DNA of 64,000 nt, taken from positions 62,001-126,000 of the forward strand of contig CANCJV010000004.1 of assembly GCA_947378425.1 (NCBI GenBank), given 5' to 3'. The number at the start of each line of letters is the position of its first letter. Within the stretch, counting starts at the first letter, position 1. Under the pieces are notes generated by a model. That model was not told the DNA's origin. It saw only the letters and a program-made list of their open reading frames with translations, and did not search any database. The position numbers and the translations under genes are program-made. Positions 3,917 through 12,947 of the stretch are shown here, in pieces. This stretch comes from Synechococcaceae cyanobacterium (GTDB lineage Bacteria > Cyanobacteriota > Cyanobacteriia > PCC-6307 > Cyanobiaceae).

Positions 3917-4348
3917 ATGCGCCGCCGTGTTTTCCTGGTGCTCTCCGGTGCAGGCGCCTTCCTGAGCCAGATTCTGGCCCCCTTGAGTGCCCGCTCAGGC
4001 CAGGCAACAGCCGTTGGCAAGAGAGCAGCCGTTGCCCGTGCCGTTGATGTGGCCAGCGTGGCCGAGCTGAGCAAGTCAGGCCAGGTGCTGGTTCGCACCA
4101 GCGCGCTGGGTCCGTTGCTGGTGATCCGGGATCCGGCCACCAAGCAACTGAAGGCCGTCAATCCAACCTGTCCCCATCGCGGTTGCCTAGTGGACTGGAT
4201 CGCTTCGGCCGACAACTTCCTCTGCCCCTGCCACCAAGCCCGCTTCAATGCCAGTGGCCGCTGGATCGGCGGCCAACCCGTCATACACCCCCTGGAGAGC
4301 TACAGGGTCACAGTCAGCAACGGCAGGATCCTCGTGAGCAAGGGCTGA
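3917..4348 (+). CDS. Rieske [2Fe-2S] domain protein, exported or membrane-anchored
   Basis: This 143-residue protein carries a C-terminal Rieske domain. The cluster ligands are visible as CPHRGC (about residues 87-92) and CPCHQARF (about 106-113), giving the two Cys and two His that hold the [2Fe-2S] cluster. The N-terminus (MRRRVFLVLSGAGAFL) is a twin-arginine-like or hydrophobic signal anchor, so the domain probably faces the lumen or periplasm. It is shorter than the cytochrome b6f PetC protein and is not next to petA, so it is better read as an accessory Rieske protein than as the main b6f subunit. It starts divergently from the methyltransferase gene. Confidence 0.82.
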   Translation: MRRRVFLVLSGAGAFLSQILAPLSARSGQATAVGKRAAVARAVDVASVAELSKSGQVLVRTSALGPLLVIRDPATKQLKAVNPTCPHRGCLVDWIASADNFLCPCHQARFNASGRWIGGQPVIHPLESYRVTVSNGRILVSKG

Positions 4349-4431
4349 ACGCGGCTGCACTGGGAAGGCGCGAACGTCCCCGGGCAGGGCTCCTACAGTC
4401 AAGTCGGGCGTGGTGGATCAGCGATAGCACG

Positions 4432-5517
4432 ATGGATCTGCTGGTCATCTCCCTGCTGGTGCGCTGGATCCTCGGCTGGCTGCTCTGTGTGCATCTGCCG
4501 CGTTTGCCTGAGGCTGGGCCGCTCCAGCAGTTCCCGGGTTTCTCGGTGTTGATTCCAGCCCGCAATGAGGAGAGCAGCCTGCCCCATCTGCTGGCGGCCC
4601 TGGAGCGCCAGAGCCTTCAACCCCTGGAGGTGATCGTGATCGACGATCACTCCAGCGACGGCACCGCCGCCTGTGCCAGGGCGGCCGGAGTTCAGCTGGT
4701 GCAACCGCCGCCGCTGCCGCCGGGATGGTGCGGCAAGACCTGGGCCCTGCACCACGGCAGCCACAGCAGCCGCGGCGAATTGCTGGTGTTTCTCGATGCC
4801 GACACCGAGCCGGGCCCCCAGTTTCTGGAACGGTTTGTCGCGGCCCAGCAGCGCTCGGGCGGGTTGGTGTCGGTGCAGCCGTTTCACCGCACCGAGCGGG
4901 CCTATGAACAACTGTCGCTGCTGTTCAACCTGGTGGGGCTGATGGCAGTGCCGCTCGGGGAGCAGGCGGCGGTGGCCTTCGGGCCGGCGATGGTCACCAG
5001 TCGCAGGGACTACGAGCTGGTGGGGGGCCATGGCGCCGTGGCAGACAAGGTGGTGGAGGACTGGTTTCTCGCCCATCTCTACGAGTCGGCCGGCCTGCCG
5101 GTGAGCGCGTATCTCGGCCAGGGACAGATCGCCTACCGCATGTATCCCGGCGGCCTTGGGGATCTGGTGGTGGGATTCGACAAGAACTTCGCCACCGCCG
5201 CCGGCGAGGTGCGCTGGCCCAGGATGCTGGCGGTGCTGCTGTGGCTGTCAGGGCTGTTCTGGACGGCCTGGGCCCTGCCCGCCTCCCTGCTCGGCTGGCC
5301 ACTGGTCGGGAACCCTGACCCCTGGATCAACCTGGCGATCTATGCAGCGTATGCGTTTCAGTTGTTGCTGCTCAGCCGGCAGGTGGGCCGTTTCAGCTGG
5401 ATCAATCTGGTGTTCCCCGTGCCGGTGTTGTTTTTCCTGGCCGTCTTCCTGCTGGCGATCGTCAACCTGGAGCGCGGCAGCGTCAGCTGGAAAGGTCGGC
5501 AGTTTCCCACCCGATGA
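4432..5517 (+). CDS. family 2 glycosyltransferase, CrtQ-like (carotenoid glycosylation)
   Basis: The GT-A glycosyltransferase has FSVLIPARNEE near residue 38, IDDHSSDGT, and the DXD-type LVFLDADTEPGP, with a later VVEDWFLAHLYES (D/E-D and WxxxL region). An N-terminal hydrophobic helix and three C-terminal membrane helices complete it. This arrangement resembles the 4,4'-diaponeurosporenoate glycosyltransferase CrtQ group. The ATG at 4432 removes an upstream extension that reads antisense to other features. The stop overlaps the next gene's start by 4 bases (ATGA), and that gene is CrtO-like, which strongly supports a role in making a glycosylated and acylated lipid or carotenoid. The exact acceptor is inferred, not shown. 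Confidence 0.82.
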   Translation: MDLLVISLLVRWILGWLLCVHLPRLPEAGPLQQFPGFSVLIPARNEESSLPHLLAALERQSLQPLEVIVIDDHSSDGTAACARAAGVQLVQPPPLPPGWCGKTWALHHGSHSSRGELLVFLDADTEPGPQFLERFVAAQQRSGGLVSVQPFHRTERAYEQLSLLFNLVGLMAVPLGEQAAVAFGPAMVTSRRDYELVGGHGAVADKVVEDWFLAHLYESAGLPVSAYLGQGQIAYRMYPGGLGDLVVGFDKNFATAAGEVRWPRMLAVLLWLSGLFWTAWALPASLLGWPLVGNPDPWINLAIYAAYAFQLLLLSRQVGRFSWINLVFPVPVLFFLAVFLLAIVNLERGSVSWKGRQFPTR

Positions 5518-6011
5518 GCGCCTCAGGTCTGCTCCTGGCGCCTGTGCTGGTCTGCGCCGGCGGCTGGTTCGGCTGGTCCCTGCTCATCGGTGGCCTGGCC
5601 AACCACCTGCCCCAGGCCTTCCTGCAGCGGGACAACGGGCTGACCCGGCTGCGGCCCTGGGAAGGACGCCACGGCTATGAACAGGGGCTGAAGATCCGCT
5701 CCTGGAAAGGCTGGCTGCCCGATGCTGGGCCGGCCCTGCCGGGTGGGGTCGCCAAGCGTGCGCTGGTGCGGCGCGATCGGCGGCGGCTGGAGCAACTGGT
5801 CCTTGAGACCCGACGGGCAGAACTGGTCCACTGGGCCCTCTGGCCCTTCTGGATCGTCAGCTGCCTGTGGCTGCCGCTCTCGGGAGTGCTGCTCAACCTG
5901 CTGTTCGCCACCCTGTTCAACCTGCCCTGCCTGGCGGTGCAGCGCTACAACCGGCTGCGGCTTCAGGCCAGCCTGGCCCGGTTCAGCGGGGAGTCCTGCC
6001 GCCAGGGATGA
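5514..6011 (+). CDS. glycosyl-4,4'-diaponeurosporenoate acyltransferase-like protein (CrtO-like)
   Basis: This 165-residue membrane protein has two pairs of hydrophobic segments (about residues 5-27 and 108-143) flanking a basic loop. The loop carries YEQGLKIRSWKGWLPDAG, which matches the K-x-R-x-W-K-x-x-L-P signature of the small CrtO acyltransferase family from staphyloxanthin synthesis. In that pathway CrtO esterifies the sugar added by CrtQ with a fatty acid. The 4-base overlap with the CrtQ-like gene implies translational coupling and a shared product, probably an acylated carotenoid glycoside or related glycolipid. The identification rests on the loop motif and context; confirmation needs a profile search. 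Confidence 0.7.
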   Translation: MSASGLLLAPVLVCAGGWFGWSLLIGGLANHLPQAFLQRDNGLTRLRPWEGRHGYEQGLKIRSWKGWLPDAGPALPGGVAKRALVRRDRRRLEQLVLETRRAELVHWALWPFWIVSCLWLPLSGVLLNLLFATLFNLPCLAVQRYNRLRLQASLARFSGESCRQG

Positions 6012-6069: not shown

Positions 6070-7232
6070 CTAGGGCGCCAAGGCAACGGGACGGAGTCGG
6101 AACCCGGGAAACTGAGTGACCAGTGCCATGGCAACCAGAACGGCCGCGAAGGCGGTCAGACCGTGCCAATGCCATCGGGACCAGAACAGGGCCACGAGAC
6201 TCGAGGCAACCCCAGCCCCAAGATAGGCGCTGAAGAACAATAAACAACCAATACGACTGCGAGCCTCAGAATTGAAACTGAAAACACGAGTCTGGTTTGC
6301 CACGTAGGAGCTCTGGACGCCAAGATTCAGCAAAAAAAGCCGATACAGATAGCCAGCAGTGAGTGTTGGTTGCTGAACAGCACAGCCACACCTAGCAACG
6401 AGGCGAAGGTTGAGGCCACAACCAACCGGCGCGCACCGAACTGATCCACCAGGTGGCCGATGCCGGGAGCCGCCAGGATGCTGATGAGTCCCACCAGACC
6501 AAAAGCGCCGATCGAGGCCGATCCCATGCGCCAGGGGGGCTCTGCCAGATGCAGGGCAAGACCACTCCAGAATGCCATGAACGCACCGAATTGCAGGCCC
6601 TGCGACAGGCAGGCCTGGCGGAGTCCCGGGTAACGGCGCAGCAGCACGAGCTGGGACGACTGAAGGGCGAGATAGGCGATGGGTCTGACGTTCCGTTCCT
6701 GCGGCAACGACCTCCTGATCCACCAGGCGACAGCCACCATCAGCACGGCAGACACCAGGAAAATAGCTCGCCAGCCAAAATGCTGGCCCACCAAGCCACC
6801 GACGGATCGTGAGAGAAGCAGGCCTGTGAATTGACCACTCAAGATGATGCCCAGGGTCCGGCCGCGAAGGGCGTCAGGAACCAGGGACGAAATATAGGCG
6901 GGCAGAAGATAGGGCACCAGAGCAGCCAATCCAAGCCCAAAGAAGGCCAGCAGCAGCAGCTGAAAATTGGGCAAAACCCCGATGGCGAAACAAGCCACTC
7001 CCAAAGCCAGCGCTGTGGTGACCAGCATGCGGCGGCGATCCACCCCATCGCCCATGGGCAGGAGCAGCAGCAGACTGAGAGCTAGACCGATCTAGATCGC
7101 CATCGGGATCAGCAGCACCTCACCAGCCGACAGAGCCAGATCCCTGGCAATCTGAGGCAAGAGAGACTGAACGTAGTAGAGGTTGGCCACACTCAGACCG
7201 ACGATGATGGCAAGAATCGGTGCGGAACCCAT
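6070..7232 (-). pseudogene. broken MFS transporter (stop codon plus frameshift)
   Basis: Read from the ATG at 7232, the frame gives an MFS permease (YYVQSLLPQIARDLALS, then DRRRMLVTTALALG, GRTLGIILSGQFTGLLLSR). Two lesions break it. Codon 47 is TAG (7094-7092). A second break lies at a seven-base A run (6332-6338 on the plus strand); one extra base there would join GIGFF to LLNLGVQSSYVANQT in the next frame. Restored, the protein would be about 387 residues with the full MFS domain pair, including the GRTLG motif A-like loop and a late VATQT-like region. It lies at the edge of the P450/HemB-like island and was probably its exporter. Sequencing error could explain the homopolymer but not easily the stop codon as well. 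Confidence 0.8.
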
Positions 7233-7283
7233 GGGTCAACCAGCGTGGGCTAAATCGGAACTTAGTCCGTCGTGGTGAAATCC

Positions 7284-8633
7284 ATGGGCCAACCTTTTCG
7301 CCACCAACTGGCCGCCTTCCTGGCGGATCTGCGGCAACGCCTGGCCCAACCAGATCCGATGCTGCAGCGGCAGTTGCGGCTGGTGCTGCTGGATACGGCT
7401 GCCACGGCGATCGCCAATCTCTCGGCCCCTGAGCTGGTGGCCTTGCAGCAGCAGCACGGTCGCCTGTCGCCAGGGGAGCAGTGTCTGCCCGGTTTCTGCG
7501 CAGCCCTGACACCGGCAGGATCGGCGCTGGTGCTGGCGGCCTCCGCCTGCTGGGACGAACTGGTGGAGGGCTATGCCCCGGCCCACGGCCGGCCGGCCTT
7601 GCATGCGGTGCCTCTGTGCCTGAGCCTGGGCCACGCTCAGGGCGGCCGGCCGGCCTGCAGCCTGAACCGGACGCTGGAGGCCCTGCTGCTGGCCTATGAG
7701 CTTGGGGGCCGGTTGGGCGAATCGTACCGGGTTCCGCCGGGAGAGCATGTCGATGGCACCTGGGGCACCGCGGTCGCGGCCCTGACGGCGGCCGTGCTGC
7801 TGGAGATCGGTGCCAGCGCTGAGCTGGAGGCCGTCTGCAGCGCCCTCTGCCAGATGAGCCGCAGCCTATTTGCAGCGGTGCAGGAGGGGGCCAGCTGCCG
7901 ACTGCTCTATCCCGGCCTGGCGGCCAGTCGCGGGCTGGATCTGGCGATGGCCGCCGCAGCCGGCCTGCGCGGCCCCGCGGCCCTCGATCGCGATCCAGTG
8001 CTGCTGGCACTGGAGGCCATGCCGTTCGACCTGGCCCCGCGTCCCACCCTGGCGATCAGCAGCGGCTACGTGAAGTTGCTGCCCGGGGCACGCCATCTGC
8101 ACTACGCCGCTGCAGCGGCCCGGCTCTGGCGGCAGCGCTTTGGCGATGGCTTCGATCGGCAATCAGCGGCGTTATCCCATGACGGGACGGATCCGATCCA
8201 GCTGCGCACCTACCCGGAAGCGATCCAGTACTGCGGTCAGACTGAACCCTGCAATCGCATCCAGGCCCAGTTCAGCCTGGCTTTTGCGGCGGCGGCCAGC
8301 CTGCGCTGGGGCGAGCTGCGCCGTGAGTTGTTCACAACGGAGGCCCTCGGTGATGCCGGCCTGCGGGCTCTGATGCGGCGCATCCAGCTGGTGGCCGTAC
8401 CCGGAGTGGCGGGACGCTGGGCCGAGCTGGCGATGAGCGATGCCGAGGGGATCCTCCAGAGCGCCCGGGTGGACGGCCTGCCGGGGGATCCCGGTCAGCC
8501 GATCGCTGAAGAGGAGCGGCTGGCGAAGGCCAGGATTCTGCTGGAGCCGGTGCTCGGCGAGTCCGCCAGCGCCCGGCTGATCCACCATTGGCTGGACGCT
8601 GACGGCACCGCGCCGCTGTGGCCGCTCAGTTGA
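7284..8633 (+). CDS. MmgE/PrpD family protein
   Basis: This 449-residue protein has the MmgE/PrpD fold. An all-helical first domain (ALVLAASACWDELVEGYAPA, HVDGTWGTAVAALTAAVLLE) is followed by the capping domain with IQLRTYPEA and NRIQAQFSLAFAAAASL, which corresponds to the conserved IQAKFSLPYA-like segment of the family. Known members are 2-methylcitrate dehydratase and cis-aconitate decarboxylase; others act on small dicarboxylic or cyclic acids. The ATG at 7284 is chosen over a GTG four codons earlier. It is the only plus-strand gene of the island and ends 8 bases inside the isomerase-like gene coming the other way. The substrate is unknown. It is not beside prpB or prpC, so a 2-methylcitrate role is unlikely. 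Confidence 0.82.
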   Translation: MGQPFRHQLAAFLADLRQRLAQPDPMLQRQLRLVLLDTAATAIANLSAPELVALQQQHGRLSPGEQCLPGFCAALTPAGSALVLAASACWDELVEGYAPAHGRPALHAVPLCLSLGHAQGGRPACSLNRTLEALLLAYELGGRLGESYRVPPGEHVDGTWGTAVAALTAAVLLEIGASAELEAVCSALCQMSRSLFAAVQEGASCRLLYPGLAASRGLDLAMAAAAGLRGPAALDRDPVLLALEAMPFDLAPRPTLAISSGYVKLLPGARHLHYAAAAARLWRQRFGDGFDRQSAALSHDGTDPIQLRTYPEAIQYCGQTEPCNRIQAQFSLAFAAAASLRWGELRRELFTTEALGDAGLRALMRRIQLVAVPGVAGRWAELAMSDAEGILQSARVDGLPGDPGQPIAEEERLAKARILLEPVLGESASARLIHHWLDADGTAPLWPLS

Positions 8634-9423
8634 AAGCGCCGAAGGGATTGAACAGGTTGTCTGCCGCAGCCGCTTGCGGATCCGTGCTGAAGCACTGCAG
8701 CTTGGCGAGCAATTGGCGTTGCAGGTCGGTGCCACGGGCCTGCTGACTCCGGCCCAATAGCCACTGGGCGATGCAGAGATTGGACGACATCAGCGGCGCT
8801 GGATAGCTCTCAATCCGATCGGCCATGGCGGCGAGTGTGGGCATGCCAGTGCCGGAGAGGAGCACCACCGTGTCTGGGCCTGGCTGCAGCTGCAGCAGGT
8901 AGGCCTCCAATTCCTGATCGCTGATGCTGTAAGCACCCTCAGCCCCGATCTGATTCAAGATGCTGTGGTGAGCCACCACCTCAAGTCCTGCCGATTGCCA
9001 GTACGCCACGGCCTGCCGGATCAGCCAGTCAGGATAAGGAAGTTCCAGTTGGATCCTGCGGAATCCCAGGACCCGGATCATCTCCAGAACCGCCAGGCTC
9101 GCTGTGATCAACGGCACGCCGAGCTCGGCGGAGGCCAACTCGCAACGGCGCCGATCTTCCGTGGGACCAAGGCGATAGTTGGAGCCTGTGCAGCCGATGA
9201 TGATGCCCTGGAGCGGCAAGGTTCCGAAGCTGCGGGCCGCATCGAGATAGCTTTCGAGATAAAGCTCATTGCGGACCGCCAGATCTTCTGATGAGGAGTA
9301 AGGCAGCCTGGCGGTGTGGATGCGGGGGACGTGATCAACGAGGCTTTCAATTTCCTCCTCCAGGGTTGGATTGGATGGCGGTACGATCAGGCCAACGGCA
9401 TCACGACCTGGCGATGACTTCAT
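8626..9423 (-). CDS. maleate isomerase / arylmalonate decarboxylase-like enzyme (Asp/Glu racemase superfamily)
   Basis: This 265-residue protein begins GLIVPPSNPTLEEEIE, the N-terminal signature of the Amdase/maleate isomerase group. Both catalytic cysteine positions are filled: Cys78 in IIIGCTGSN and Cys217 in SSNLCIAQWLLG. In this superfamily two cysteines suggest an isomerase or racemase, while decarboxylases keep one. The enzyme would therefore probably isomerise or epimerise a small dicarboxylic acid by way of an enzyme-bound intermediate. It is the last gene of a minus-strand run (P450, HemB-like, FAD monooxygenase, this gene). Its 3' end overlaps the MmgE/PrpD gene by 8 bases, which ties the two into one locus. 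Confidence 0.8.
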   Translation of the reverse strand: MKSSPGRDAVGLIVPPSNPTLEEEIESLVDHVPRIHTARLPYSSSEDLAVRNELYLESYLDAARSFGTLPLQGIIIGCTGSNYRLGPTEDRRRCELASAELGVPLITASLAVLEMIRVLGFRRIQLELPYPDWLIRQAVAYWQSAGLEVVAHHSILNQIGAEGAYSISDQELEAYLLQLQPGPDTVVLLSGTGMPTLAAMADRIESYPAPLMSSNLCIAQWLLGRSQQARGTDLQRQLLAKLQCFSTDPQAAAADNLFNPFGAFN

Positions 9424-9514: not shown

Positions 9515-10714
9515 TCAGCCCTGGTTCAGATCAAGGAGGCAGGCCTTCCTCAGCAGCATGGAATCCTGTTCGGCCGGTGGATGGCCATCGCTGGGTTCAA
9601 ATGGCCTATGACCAGCGATCAATTGGGCAGTGCGCGACATTAACACCGCTGTGGTTCGCTTCTGCCAGCGCCGGGCCCAGCCGTCAACGGCCCGTTTCTG
9701 ATCGCGGGCCTGGCGATGGATCGAGCTGGCGAGGGTTTCGGCCAGCTCAAGACCTTCCAGCAGGCCGAAGTTCATGTTGAGGCCACCGCGGGTGTTGGTG
9801 ATGTGGGCCGCATCACCGATCAACAGGCAACGATCTTGTTGCCGTACGTGGACGCAACGCTGGCTGACACGGTAGTGATCCATGACCATCGGCAGGCTTT
9901 GCCAGGCGCTGAACTCACTGAAGCCTGCGAAGATCTGAGCCAGCCGCTGCCGGGCCCACCGGTCATCCGTCAGGGCCGGCTCGATGTCGGCGGCCGACGG
10001 ACGCAGGATCAGACGCCAATCGGTTCGCATGCGCAGGGCACTGAGCGAGCCGAAGGGATGGTGGATGTAGGTGAGTCCCGCCAATTGCTCACTGACCGCC
10101 TGGGGCAGCTGGGAGAGCATCAATCTCAGCACCGGCTCCGGCAGGTCGTGGCCGGCAAACGGCAGCTGCAGCCGATGGCGAACCGTGCTGTGGGCGCCAT
10201 CGGCTGCCACCAACCAGCGAGCGGTCAGCATGCGGGGCCGGGCCCCCTGCTGGGAGCCCAAGACCCAGGCCTCGATCGGCTCGTGGCGATCCGGGGCAGG
10301 ATTGTTGCCCAGGGCGACCAGCTGCTGGCCCCAGCACACCGCCGGCTGGGCTGAAGGCTGCAGCTGAGCCAATCGCTGCAACAGCAATGCGCAGAGCCAA
10401 TGCTGCTCCAGATGCAGGCGGAACGGATGCTGGGTGTGTCCCTGCAGGCAGGTGAAGGACAGATCGCGGCATTGACCGGAGGGCAGCTCAAGATGCCGCA
10501 GCAGCCCCACCTGGTGGCCCTGGGGGAGGAGCTGGCTCAGCAAGCCGAGACTGGCCAGGCGATCGAGGATTGCCGGCTGGAAGGTGGAGGCCCGGGAGGC
10601 CCGGGAGGGCTCCTGGCGCTGCTCAACCACCAGGCAGGACAAGCCCAGGCTTCGCAGGCGATAGGCCGTGAGCAGGCCGACGGGTCCCGCCCCCACGACC
10701 AACACATCCACCAT
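9515..10714 (-). CDS. FAD-dependent monooxygenase (PHBH/UbiH-type)
   Basis: This is a 399-residue protein of the FAD_binding_3 family. The Rossmann motif is VDVLVVGAGPVGLL at the start, the second FAD/NADPH motif is VAADGAHSTVRHRL, and the flavin ribityl motif is CLLIGDAAHITNTRGGLNMN. Such enzymes use NAD(P)H and O2 to hydroxylate or epoxidise aromatic or polyene substrates. The ATG at 10714 is preferred; a TTG at 10789 would add 25 residues of weak character. It lies 104 bases after the HemB-like gene in the same direction. The place in the cluster suggests it oxidises the product or intermediate of the HemB-like enzyme. Confidence 0.85.
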   Translation of the reverse strand: MVDVLVVGAGPVGLLTAYRLRSLGLSCLVVEQRQEPSRASRASTFQPAILDRLASLGLLSQLLPQGHQVGLLRHLELPSGQCRDLSFTCLQGHTQHPFRLHLEQHWLCALLLQRLAQLQPSAQPAVCWGQQLVALGNNPAPDRHEPIEAWVLGSQQGARPRMLTARWLVAADGAHSTVRHRLQLPFAGHDLPEPVLRLMLSQLPQAVSEQLAGLTYIHHPFGSLSALRMRTDWRLILRPSAADIEPALTDDRWARQRLAQIFAGFSEFSAWQSLPMVMDHYRVSQRCVHVRQQDRCLLIGDAAHITNTRGGLNMNFGLLEGLELAETLASSIHRQARDQKRAVDGWARRWQKRTTAVLMSRTAQLIAGHRPFEPSDGHPPAEQDSMLLRKACLLDLNQG

Positions 10715-10818
10715 CGGCTGGACTGGATCGTGGCTGCTGGCCAGACCGGAACCTGAACCAACCGCATCGCCAGCCGGGATCAGGTTCAAGGCGCTGGTTG
10801 GATCACGACGATCTGAGA

Positions 10819-11733
10819 TCAGGAGCTGTGTGGGTGTTGACGCAGAAAATGATCAGCGGCGTAGCCAATGATCCAGCGGGCGCCGCAGCGGCGGAAGGCG
10901 GCATGAATTTCATCGTAATAGTCGGCTTCGTTCAGCAGGCCAGCCTGGGCTGCCAGTCGGGCCATCATGAACTCGCCGCTGACGTGATACACGGCCACCG
11001 GCGCACTGGAGCGGCGCACTGTTTCGGCCAGAACATCGAGGTAGGGCAGGGCCGGCTTGACGATGGTGGCGATGGCACCCTGGCGTCGATCCTCCTCCAT
11101 CTGATCAATGGCTGCTGTCGTGTCGTTGAAATCGAACTGGTAGGTCTTGCGCACCGTTCCAAGTCTGGAACCGATGGCCTGACGATAGGGACCATAGAGC
11201 GAGGAGGAAAACTTGGTGCTGTAGGGAAACACCTCACAGGCGAGGTTGGCGGCATCCAGACCCTGACGAATGGCGCCGGTCTGCTGCGGCAGCGACAGGC
11301 AGGGGGCAACAGCATCGGCGCCTGAATGGGCAAAGCTGAGGGCCAGTTGCACCACGGCGCGATAGGAGGCGTCCTCGTCAATCAGCCCATCGTGATTGAT
11401 CACACTGTGACCGGAGTCCTGATATGGCGACAAGCCGACATCGGCAATCAGAGTGATCGCGCTGCCCCAGCGTCCGCGGGCCTGCAGCAGCACCTGACGC
11501 ACACAGAAGCTTTCAGCCTCTGCCAGCTCCAGCGCCGGTCTGGCATTGACGGCGATCACCAGCACATAGCGCAAGCCCTGGGCAAGGCGCCGCTCAAGAT
11601 GCTCCAGGGCCGAGGCCACACTGTGAATCCAGCAACCATCAATGGCAGCCCGGCGAGGGACGGGCCCGTCGTCGCTGACGAACAGGCATTCGATATAATC
11701 AAAACCACCGGACTGGAAGGGGAGCTGCGCCAT
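10819..11733 (-). CDS. divergent porphobilinogen-synthase (HemB)-like enzyme
   Basis: This 304-residue protein aligns clearly with 5-aminolevulinate dehydratase. Both Schiff-base lysines are present, Lys174 in YSTKFSSSLYGPYR and Lys226 in IVKPALPYLD. They are 52 residues apart, the same spacing as Lys195 and Lys247 of E. coli HemB. YHVSGEF also matches the family YxVSGEY. The metal site does not match: the zinc cysteines of DTCFCEYTSHGHC read DVGLSPYQDSGHS, and the usual MDG motif after APS is missing (APCLSLPQQTGAIR). The N-terminal arm is short. It is therefore unlikely to be the housekeeping haem or chlorophyll enzyme. It probably condenses other amino-ketones or keto-acids. It lies 5 bases after the P450 gene; an alternative TTG start would overlap that gene. 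Confidence 0.85.
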   Translation of the reverse strand: MAQLPFQSGGFDYIECLFVSDDGPVPRRAAIDGCWIHSVASALEHLERRLAQGLRYVLVIAVNARPALELAEAESFCVRQVLLQARGRWGSAITLIADVGLSPYQDSGHSVINHDGLIDEDASYRAVVQLALSFAHSGADAVAPCLSLPQQTGAIRQGLDAANLACEVFPYSTKFSSSLYGPYRQAIGSRLGTVRKTYQFDFNDTTAAIDQMEEDRRQGAIATIVKPALPYLDVLAETVRRSSAPVAVYHVSGEFMMARLAAQAGLLNEADYYDEIHAAFRRCGARWIIGYAADHFLRQHPHSS

Positions 11734-11738
11734 GGATT

Positions 11739-12947
11739 TCAACGATGCAGGATGAGTCGCTCATAGCCCCGAAAACGATCAGCAATCTGCAGCCTGGATT
11801 CGGCCTGAATACAATGCAGATTTTCAAATTGATCGCACAATACAGATAAAACCGCCGCGCCCTGCATGCGGGCCAGCTGTAAGCCCAGGCATTGATGCAA
11901 GCCAGGTGCAAAGCTCAGATGGGGATTGGGGGAACGATCGATCAGGAAAGCATCGGGTTGGTCAAAGGCCTCGGGATCGCGATTCGCCGCCCCGACCAGG
12001 GCTGTGATCGAATCCCCCGCCTTGATGGTCTGGCCGGCGATGACCAGGTCTTCCGTAGCTGCACTGGCATTGATGGCCTGGGCCGGTGGATCCCAGCGCA
12101 GGACTTCCTCGATGGCAGGGGTCAGTAAGGTGCGGTCGTTACGGATGCGTTGGTAGGTGGCTGGATGATGGGCCATCGCCCAGGCTATCGTGCCTATCAG
12201 CAGGCGCAGGGTATAAAGGCTGGCCGAATAAAAATTGCTGCTGATGATCAACAGGAGTTGGTCATCGGAGAGGTGAATACCCTCCTCTGGATCGGCAATC
12301 AGGCGACTGAGCAGATCCGTGCCTGGACCACCGCGGCGTTCGTGAATCAGGGGAAGAAAATACTGCCTGTACACATCAAGGGCCTCATTGCCACCAGAGG
12401 CGCTTTTCGCATCCTGGGTCAAGCCTCGAGCTCTGACAAAGGCATTCACCTGATTGGCCACAGCCAGCTGCTGACTGGGGGGGACCCCCATCAATTCGCT
12501 CACCACCATCACCGAGAGGTCATTGGCCAACAGAGCCACCAGGTCAAAGGATTCGTCTCCCTGGACGCGGGACAGGCGTTCGACGGCAAATCGGCTGGCG
12601 AATGCAGCCAGAGCTGCCATGTCGATGCCGCGGTAAGCCTTGCTGACATGCTGACGCATCTGGGCGTGCTGCTTGCCATCCATGTAGGGCAGGTCTTGCT
12701 TCTGATGCTCATAGATCTGGCCATTGTGGCCAAAGCGAGCAATCAGTTGATCAAGGTGATCCTGGCGGCTGAGACGTGGATCCCGCATCAACTCCACGGA
12801 CTCGCTGTAGCCAAGCACAACCCACATCTGCGGTCCTTCACACCAATGCACAGCAGATTCCTGCCGCAGGGCCGCATAAATTTCGTAGGGATTCGGATGC
12901 CCTGGCAGGCAGGGGTCCTGGCGAAACTGTTCGATTTGGAGCTGCAT
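11739..12947 (-). CDS. cytochrome P450 (bacterial soluble type)
   Basis: This 402-residue P450 has the ExxR of the K-helix at Glu281-Arg284 (EEVLRW) and the haem loop FAPGLHQCLG with ligand Cys353, followed by LQLARMQG. There is no membrane anchor, so it is a soluble class I enzyme needing ferredoxin and reductase. The I-helix is unusual. Where most P450s have an AG-[DE]-T group for oxygen activation, this one reads SNFYSASLYTLRLL (about residues 237-250), so the acidic residue appears to be lost. It may catalyse coupling, isomerisation or another atypical reaction. It is the first gene of the minus-strand run and is translated just ahead of the HemB-like gene. GC content is low for this genome (31/60 at 12241-12300). 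Confidence 0.93.
   Translation of the reverse strand: MQLQIEQFRQDPCLPGHPNPYEIYAALRQESAVHWCEGPQMWVVLGYSESVELMRDPRLSRQDHLDQLIARFGHNGQIYEHQKQDLPYMDGKQHAQMRQHVSKAYRGIDMAALAAFASRFAVERLSRVQGDESFDLVALLANDLSVMVVSELMGVPPSQQLAVANQVNAFVRARGLTQDAKSASGGNEALDVYRQYFLPLIHERRGGPGTDLLSRLIADPEEGIHLSDDQLLLIISSNFYSASLYTLRLLIGTIAWAMAHHPATYQRIRNDRTLLTPAIEEVLRWDPPAQAINASAATEDLVIAGQTIKAGDSITALVGAANRDPEAFDQPDAFLIDRSPNPHLSFAPGLHQCLGLQLARMQGAAVLSVLCDQFENLHCIQAESRLQIADRFRGYERLILHR

Follow-up and report, generated by a model that had tools for sequence, protein, structure and literature searches.

Apparently recent loss of an MFS transporter gene at the edge of a conserved HemB-paralogue cluster in a Synechococcaceae cyanobacterium

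Introduction

Transporter genes of cyanobacterial peptide clusters are described as evolving together with the cluster, as one functional unit (PMC2739229). The reference list of that paper includes a study on mcyH inactivation and the resulting loss of microcystin production; the sentence concerned names mcyJ, and the title cited there names mcyH. A second described case is that of the tolyporphin clusters BGC-1 and BGC-2 of HT-58-2, which, according to PMC10459692, contain an extra hemB, P450 genes and a gene for an FAD-binding protein.

Here, we analysed a stretch of 64,000 nucleotides (the window) from a Synechococcaceae cyanobacterium (assembly GCA_947378425.1, contig CANCJV010000004.1, positions 62,001 to 126,000), which contains a six-gene cluster with a disrupted transporter gene of the major facilitator superfamily (MFS) at its edge. 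As with mcyH in the microcystin cluster, the transporter gene belongs to the cluster (PMC2739229). Microcystin-type clusters, however, have ABC transporters and peptide synthetases, whereas the window combines an MFS transporter with a P450, a HemB-like protein, an FAD enzyme, a decarboxylase-like protein and a PrpD-like protein; unlike the inactivation of mcyH, the mutation of the window's MFS gene is natural. The tolyporphin clusters are likewise cyanobacterial and likewise carry an extra hemB together with P450 and FAD genes, but they hold several further hem genes (PMC10459692). In the window, none of the ten proteins scanned, comprising those of the cluster genes and of three flanking genes, is encoded by a further hem gene such as hemC, hemE or hemF.

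Cluster composition and distribution

The coordinates of the cluster genes and of the two lesions are given in Table 1. The minus-strand enzyme genes are transcribed in the order P450, HemB-like, FAD monooxygenase and arylmalonate-decarboxylase-like, and the PrpD-like gene faces them. This gene order recurs in relatives of the window's genome.

Table 1. Features of the cluster and of the disrupted transporter gene (window coordinates)
Feature	Position	Strand	Basis
MFS transporter pseudogene	6070..7232	-	frames, PF07690 match and DNA alignment
In-frame TAG, codon 47 of MFS gene	7092..7094	-	sense codon in 4/4 aligned relatives
A7 run (plus strand; T7 on coding strand), frameshift site in MFS gene	6332..6338	-	
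MmgE/PrpD-like gene, divergent from MFS	7272..8633	+	PF03972 72.1 bits, PF19305 65.8 bits
Arylmalonate-decarboxylase-like gene	8626..9423	-	PF17645 36 bits; NCBIfam EutA and arylmalonate decarboxylase below cut-off
FAD-dependent monooxygenase gene	9515..10789	-	PF01494 128.2 bits
HemB-like gene (porphobilinogen synthase paralogue)	10819..11742	-	PF00490 207.6 bits
Cytochrome P450 gene	11739..12947	-	PF00067 64.9 bits

The HemB-like gene was found in 5 of 42 genomes of the genus, the window's own counted, and in 13 of 400 family genomes, both samples holding one genome per species. Four contigs (L009, L010, L011 and L012) were matched to G051, G227, G234 and G281, respectively, by their identical lengths and hit coordinates, and each was counted once. 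Among 386 genomes sampled across the phylum, a search at E 1e-60 found the gene in the window's own genome and in none of the other 385. The preliminary description had placed the pseudogene at the edge of a cluster, and this placement holds: the cluster is conserved, with its HemB-like gene recurring in the 13 family genomes. No description of a cluster built on a second HemB was found among the matches listed in the open-licence literature. We consider this rare HemB-paralogue cluster to be the more interesting part of the locus and the one worth following.

The window's genome encodes a separate, canonical HemB on contig 17. The cluster protein resembles porphobilinogen synthase in its match to PF00490 and in two lysines, conserved in all 13 cluster copies, whose positions correspond in the alignment to lysines of solved porphobilinogen synthases; we take these two positions to be the catalytic lysines of the enzyme. 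It differs from porphobilinogen synthase in falling below the NCBIfam equivalog cut-offs, scoring 201.4 bits against a cut-off of 297 for PRK09283.1 and 159.4 bits against a cut-off of 507 for PRK13384.1. It differs further in that the stretch PSDMMDGR of the genome's canonical HemB is replaced by PCLSLPxQT in 13/13 cluster copies. The HemB-like protein may, as a fair inference, have changed substrate.

Lesions in the transporter gene

Read from 7232 to 6070 on the minus strand, the MFS gene meets a TAG stop at codon 47 (7094-7092). Its frame is lost at the A7 run, where the original frame closes at a TGA (6329-6327), and the remainder of the protein, 3′ of the run, is read in another frame down to 6070. 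The middle fragment scores 83.5 bits against Pfam MFS_1 (PF07690; curated cut-off 33.4), which places the protein in the superfamily. All four same-genus carriers aligned with it (G163, G218, G224 and G227) have a full-length MFS gene; their open frames are 396 to 440 residues long and 74 to 87% identical to the window's 242-residue fragment. In the DNA alignment, codon 47 is a sense codon in each of the four, the window's register is offset from theirs by one base at the A7 run, and the run of seven itself is absent from all four. The in-frame TAG and the frameshift at the A7 run, both reported in the preliminary description, were thus recovered, and the window's gene, disrupted in frame while its same-genus relatives are intact, is classed as a pseudogene.

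Either lesion alone should abolish the transporter. The TAG alone would do so because a restart at 7055 would lack approximately the first 59 residues, and the frameshift alone because it removes approximately the last 90 residues. We considered programmed recoding, by read-through of the stop combined with slippage on the T7 run, but rejected it: two rare events would be needed in one message, and neither feature occurs in any of the four aligned relatives.

Errors of sequencing or assembly at both positions, leaving an intact transporter in the organism, would explain the same observations. The assembly is a draft in 84 contigs, one lesion sits in a homopolymer, where errors commonly arise, and outside the lesions the MFS protein is as conserved as the product of a working gene. 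Against this explanation, two errors of different kinds would be needed within one gene, the TAG lies away from the homopolymer, and the adjoining enzyme frames are full length; moreover, none of the four aligned relatives has the run of seven. Profile scans of the whole genome served as controls: of the 17 rows matching PF07690, internal stops (one TGA and one TAG) occur only in the row of the pseudogene and in none of the other 16, and none of the 57 rows matching PF00005 has one. Given these clean controls, two errors in this one MFS gene are unlikely, and we judge an intact transporter hidden by faulty sequence to be quite improbable. Strain-level polymorphism at the lesions is possible.

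Age of the loss

Amino-acid changes in the MFS gene were assigned to a lineage where three outgroups agree, which gave 10 changes on the branch of the window and 9 on that of G163, its nearest relative; single outgroups gave similar counts (11 and 10, 10 and 10, and 12 and 9, respectively). The ratio dN/dS of the MFS gene between the window and G163 is 0.146 (381 codons, excluding the stop codon and those adjoining the A7 run). This value lies within the range of the cluster enzymes, namely 0.089 for the P450, 0.131 for the HemB-like protein, 0.198 for the decarboxylase-like protein, 0.200 for the FAD enzyme and 0.221 for the PrpD-like protein, the value for the FAD enzyme referring to its C-terminal part, as the gene of G163 is split over two contigs.

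We simulated the expected numbers of changes for a gene that was free of constraint for part of the branch. With the gene free for 15% of the branch, 3.6% of runs gave counts as low as those observed; with 20%, 0.8% did. The simulation is rough, assuming equal branch lengths and a transition bias of 2 and taking its detection fraction from the same data; with that qualification, it speaks against a loss that predates roughly the final 15% of the branch. In the protein tree, the branch of the window's MFS protein is longer than that of G163 (0.071 vs 0.039), which counts against recency. An old pseudogene is not supported, there being no excess of assigned amino-acid changes, and the longer branch is the sole result on its side.

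The loss of the MFS gene is therefore recent, or else the lesions are assembly errors. Subject to that alternative, the changes assigned (10 vs 9) and the simulation uphold the earlier proposal that the rest of the protein is well preserved and its inactivation recent. The reading that we favour, with a probability of roughly 0.85, is that a nonsense codon and a one-base frameshift inactivated a conserved cluster transporter very recently, with the five enzyme genes remaining intact.

Function of the MFS protein

The preliminary description had called the gene an exporter gene. Membership in the MFS is well founded, but the export role is unproven from the sequence. NCBIfam matches of the window's fragment and of the G163 copy include importers as well as efflux pumps, and every one of them falls far short of its cut-off. 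Among solved proteins, the G163 copy matches a sugar efflux transporter best (E 7.1e-7). Motif C of drug:proton antiporters, which we take to lie in helix 5 and to contain Gly-Pro, is unmatched in all 16 aligned MFS sequences, the window's included, which have Ser-Arg or Ala-Arg at that place. Three consequences of the loss had been suggested, namely that the cluster product is no longer exported, that it is used inside the cell, or that the cluster is decaying; none of them is established.

Transporter state in the other carriers

Ten of the 13 carriers (G163, G218, G224, G227, G069, G259, G278, G281, G335 and G358) have a full-length MFS frame next to PrpD on one contig. A demonstrable intact cluster transporter is missing in three, namely the window's genome (G000), G051 and G234. 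Both G051 and G234 appear to lack the MFS gene, as judged from drafts in which the relevant positions lie at contig ends or beside repeats. In G051, no transporter was found beside PrpD, and a transposase gene (PF05598, PF01609) starts approximately 400 bases upstream of PrpD. In G234, the contig ends inside an element that is 84% identical over 128 bases to that of G051, approximately 30 bases from a possible PrpD start; a search of this genome at E 1e-25 detected no relative of the transporter.

Transposase-bearing elements thus adjoin PrpD in two carriers (L047:1-128 and L009:5577-6773). A search for transporter remnants in the first 8400 bases of L009 gave only weak matches, the best E value being 0.048 when the window's pieces were used and 0.007 when the copy of a relative was used; between PrpD and the transposase, no transporter match was better than E 1. 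In the stretch tried around the L009 transposase, no inverted repeats of at least 10 bases were found.

The enzyme frames are full length in 5/5 cases in the window, 5/5 in G234 and 4/5 in G051. The last of these genomes, Cyanobium sp. Morenito 9A2, has the cluster P450 in pieces at the contig start (L009:1-708), with residues 6-50 matched on the opposite strand and residues 347-402 in place; these fragments reflect either a rearrangement or an assembly fault.

Fate of the cluster and of its substrate

The suggestion that the cluster itself may be decaying is not supported by the present evidence because all five enzyme frames of the window are full length. The whole cluster could nevertheless be in the course of being lost from the window's lineage, the transporter being merely the first gene to go. 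The patchy distribution of the cluster, with its HemB-like gene in few genomes of the genus and of the family, is compatible with such a course, as is G051, in which both edge genes are affected, with no MFS gene beside PrpD and a fragmentary P450 at the contig end. Set against it are the full-length enzyme genes of the window with their dN/dS values relative to G163, although the history that these values record mostly predates the loss, and the case of G234, in which all five enzyme frames are full length and no MFS relative was detected at E 1e-25. A decay begun with so recent a loss could not yet show. On balance, we regard progressive loss of the cluster as doubtful.

On the favoured reading of a recent inactivation, the broken MFS protein would no longer move its substrate, which would most likely be moved by another carrier, or else the transport step would be dispensable. 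The candidate carrier is an intact second MFS protein of the same group, encoded on contig 6 of the window's genome with a 398-residue frame and 54% identical. In the tree, this paralogue falls outside the cluster transporters and groups with the G051, G069, G175 and G062 copies; both it and the G062 copy form long branches. A paralogue-type MFS gene directly follows a P450 gene related to that of the cluster in G069, and in G062 it follows a P450 gene and a gene for an EF-hand protein. Upstream of the window's paralogue are genes for a Coq4-like protein and for a similar EF-hand protein, and no such P450.

That the loss is tolerated because the paralogue carries the same substrate is suggested by the presence of this intact relative, by the cluster-like P450 genes adjoining its relatives in G069 and G062, and by the distribution of paralogue-type copies, which occur in two of the three carriers that have no intact cluster MFS gene (G000 and G051) and in one of the ten that have one (G069). 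The association is weak, however (P = 0.11, uncorrected for relatedness), G234 has neither a cluster MFS gene nor the paralogue, and the window's paralogue is a long, diverged branch with no cluster-like P450 beside it. We consider substitution by the paralogue rather unlikely on these data; the paralogue could be a substitute and is a lead only.

Paralogous modules that combine an MFS gene of the same group with a related P450 gene lie at L037:6275-9435 and L054:5261-7649. The MFS gene is accompanied by an EF-hand protein gene at L035:8954-11508 and again at L037:6275-9435, and L035 also has the Coq4-like gene.

A more speculative picture, which we hold to be less probable still, would join these observations as follows. 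The transporter would be the expendable part of a HemB-paralogue cluster making a small molecule, perhaps a pyrrole, and would have been lost in 3 of the 13 carriers by at least two routes: point lesions would account for one carrier, and the other two have a transposase-bearing element next to PrpD. Four enzyme genes (HemB-like, FAD, decarboxylase-like and PrpD-like) would have stayed intact because the product acts within the cell or leaves through the paralogous transporter that belongs with the related P450.

The MFS pseudogene is in itself an ordinary kind of gene loss beside a small cluster. As a natural transporter-minus variant next to closely related transporter-plus genomes, it could serve to ask whether such clusters need their transporter.

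Beyond the cluster, the MFS pseudogene is flanked by a glycosyltransferase-like gene and a CrtO-type acyltransferase-like gene (PF18927), at 4183-6011 of the window. The contig of G224 ends within the first of the two, and the glycosyltransferase comparison was made without that genome, which has only 34 residues there. The pair keeps its place in G163, G218 and G227.
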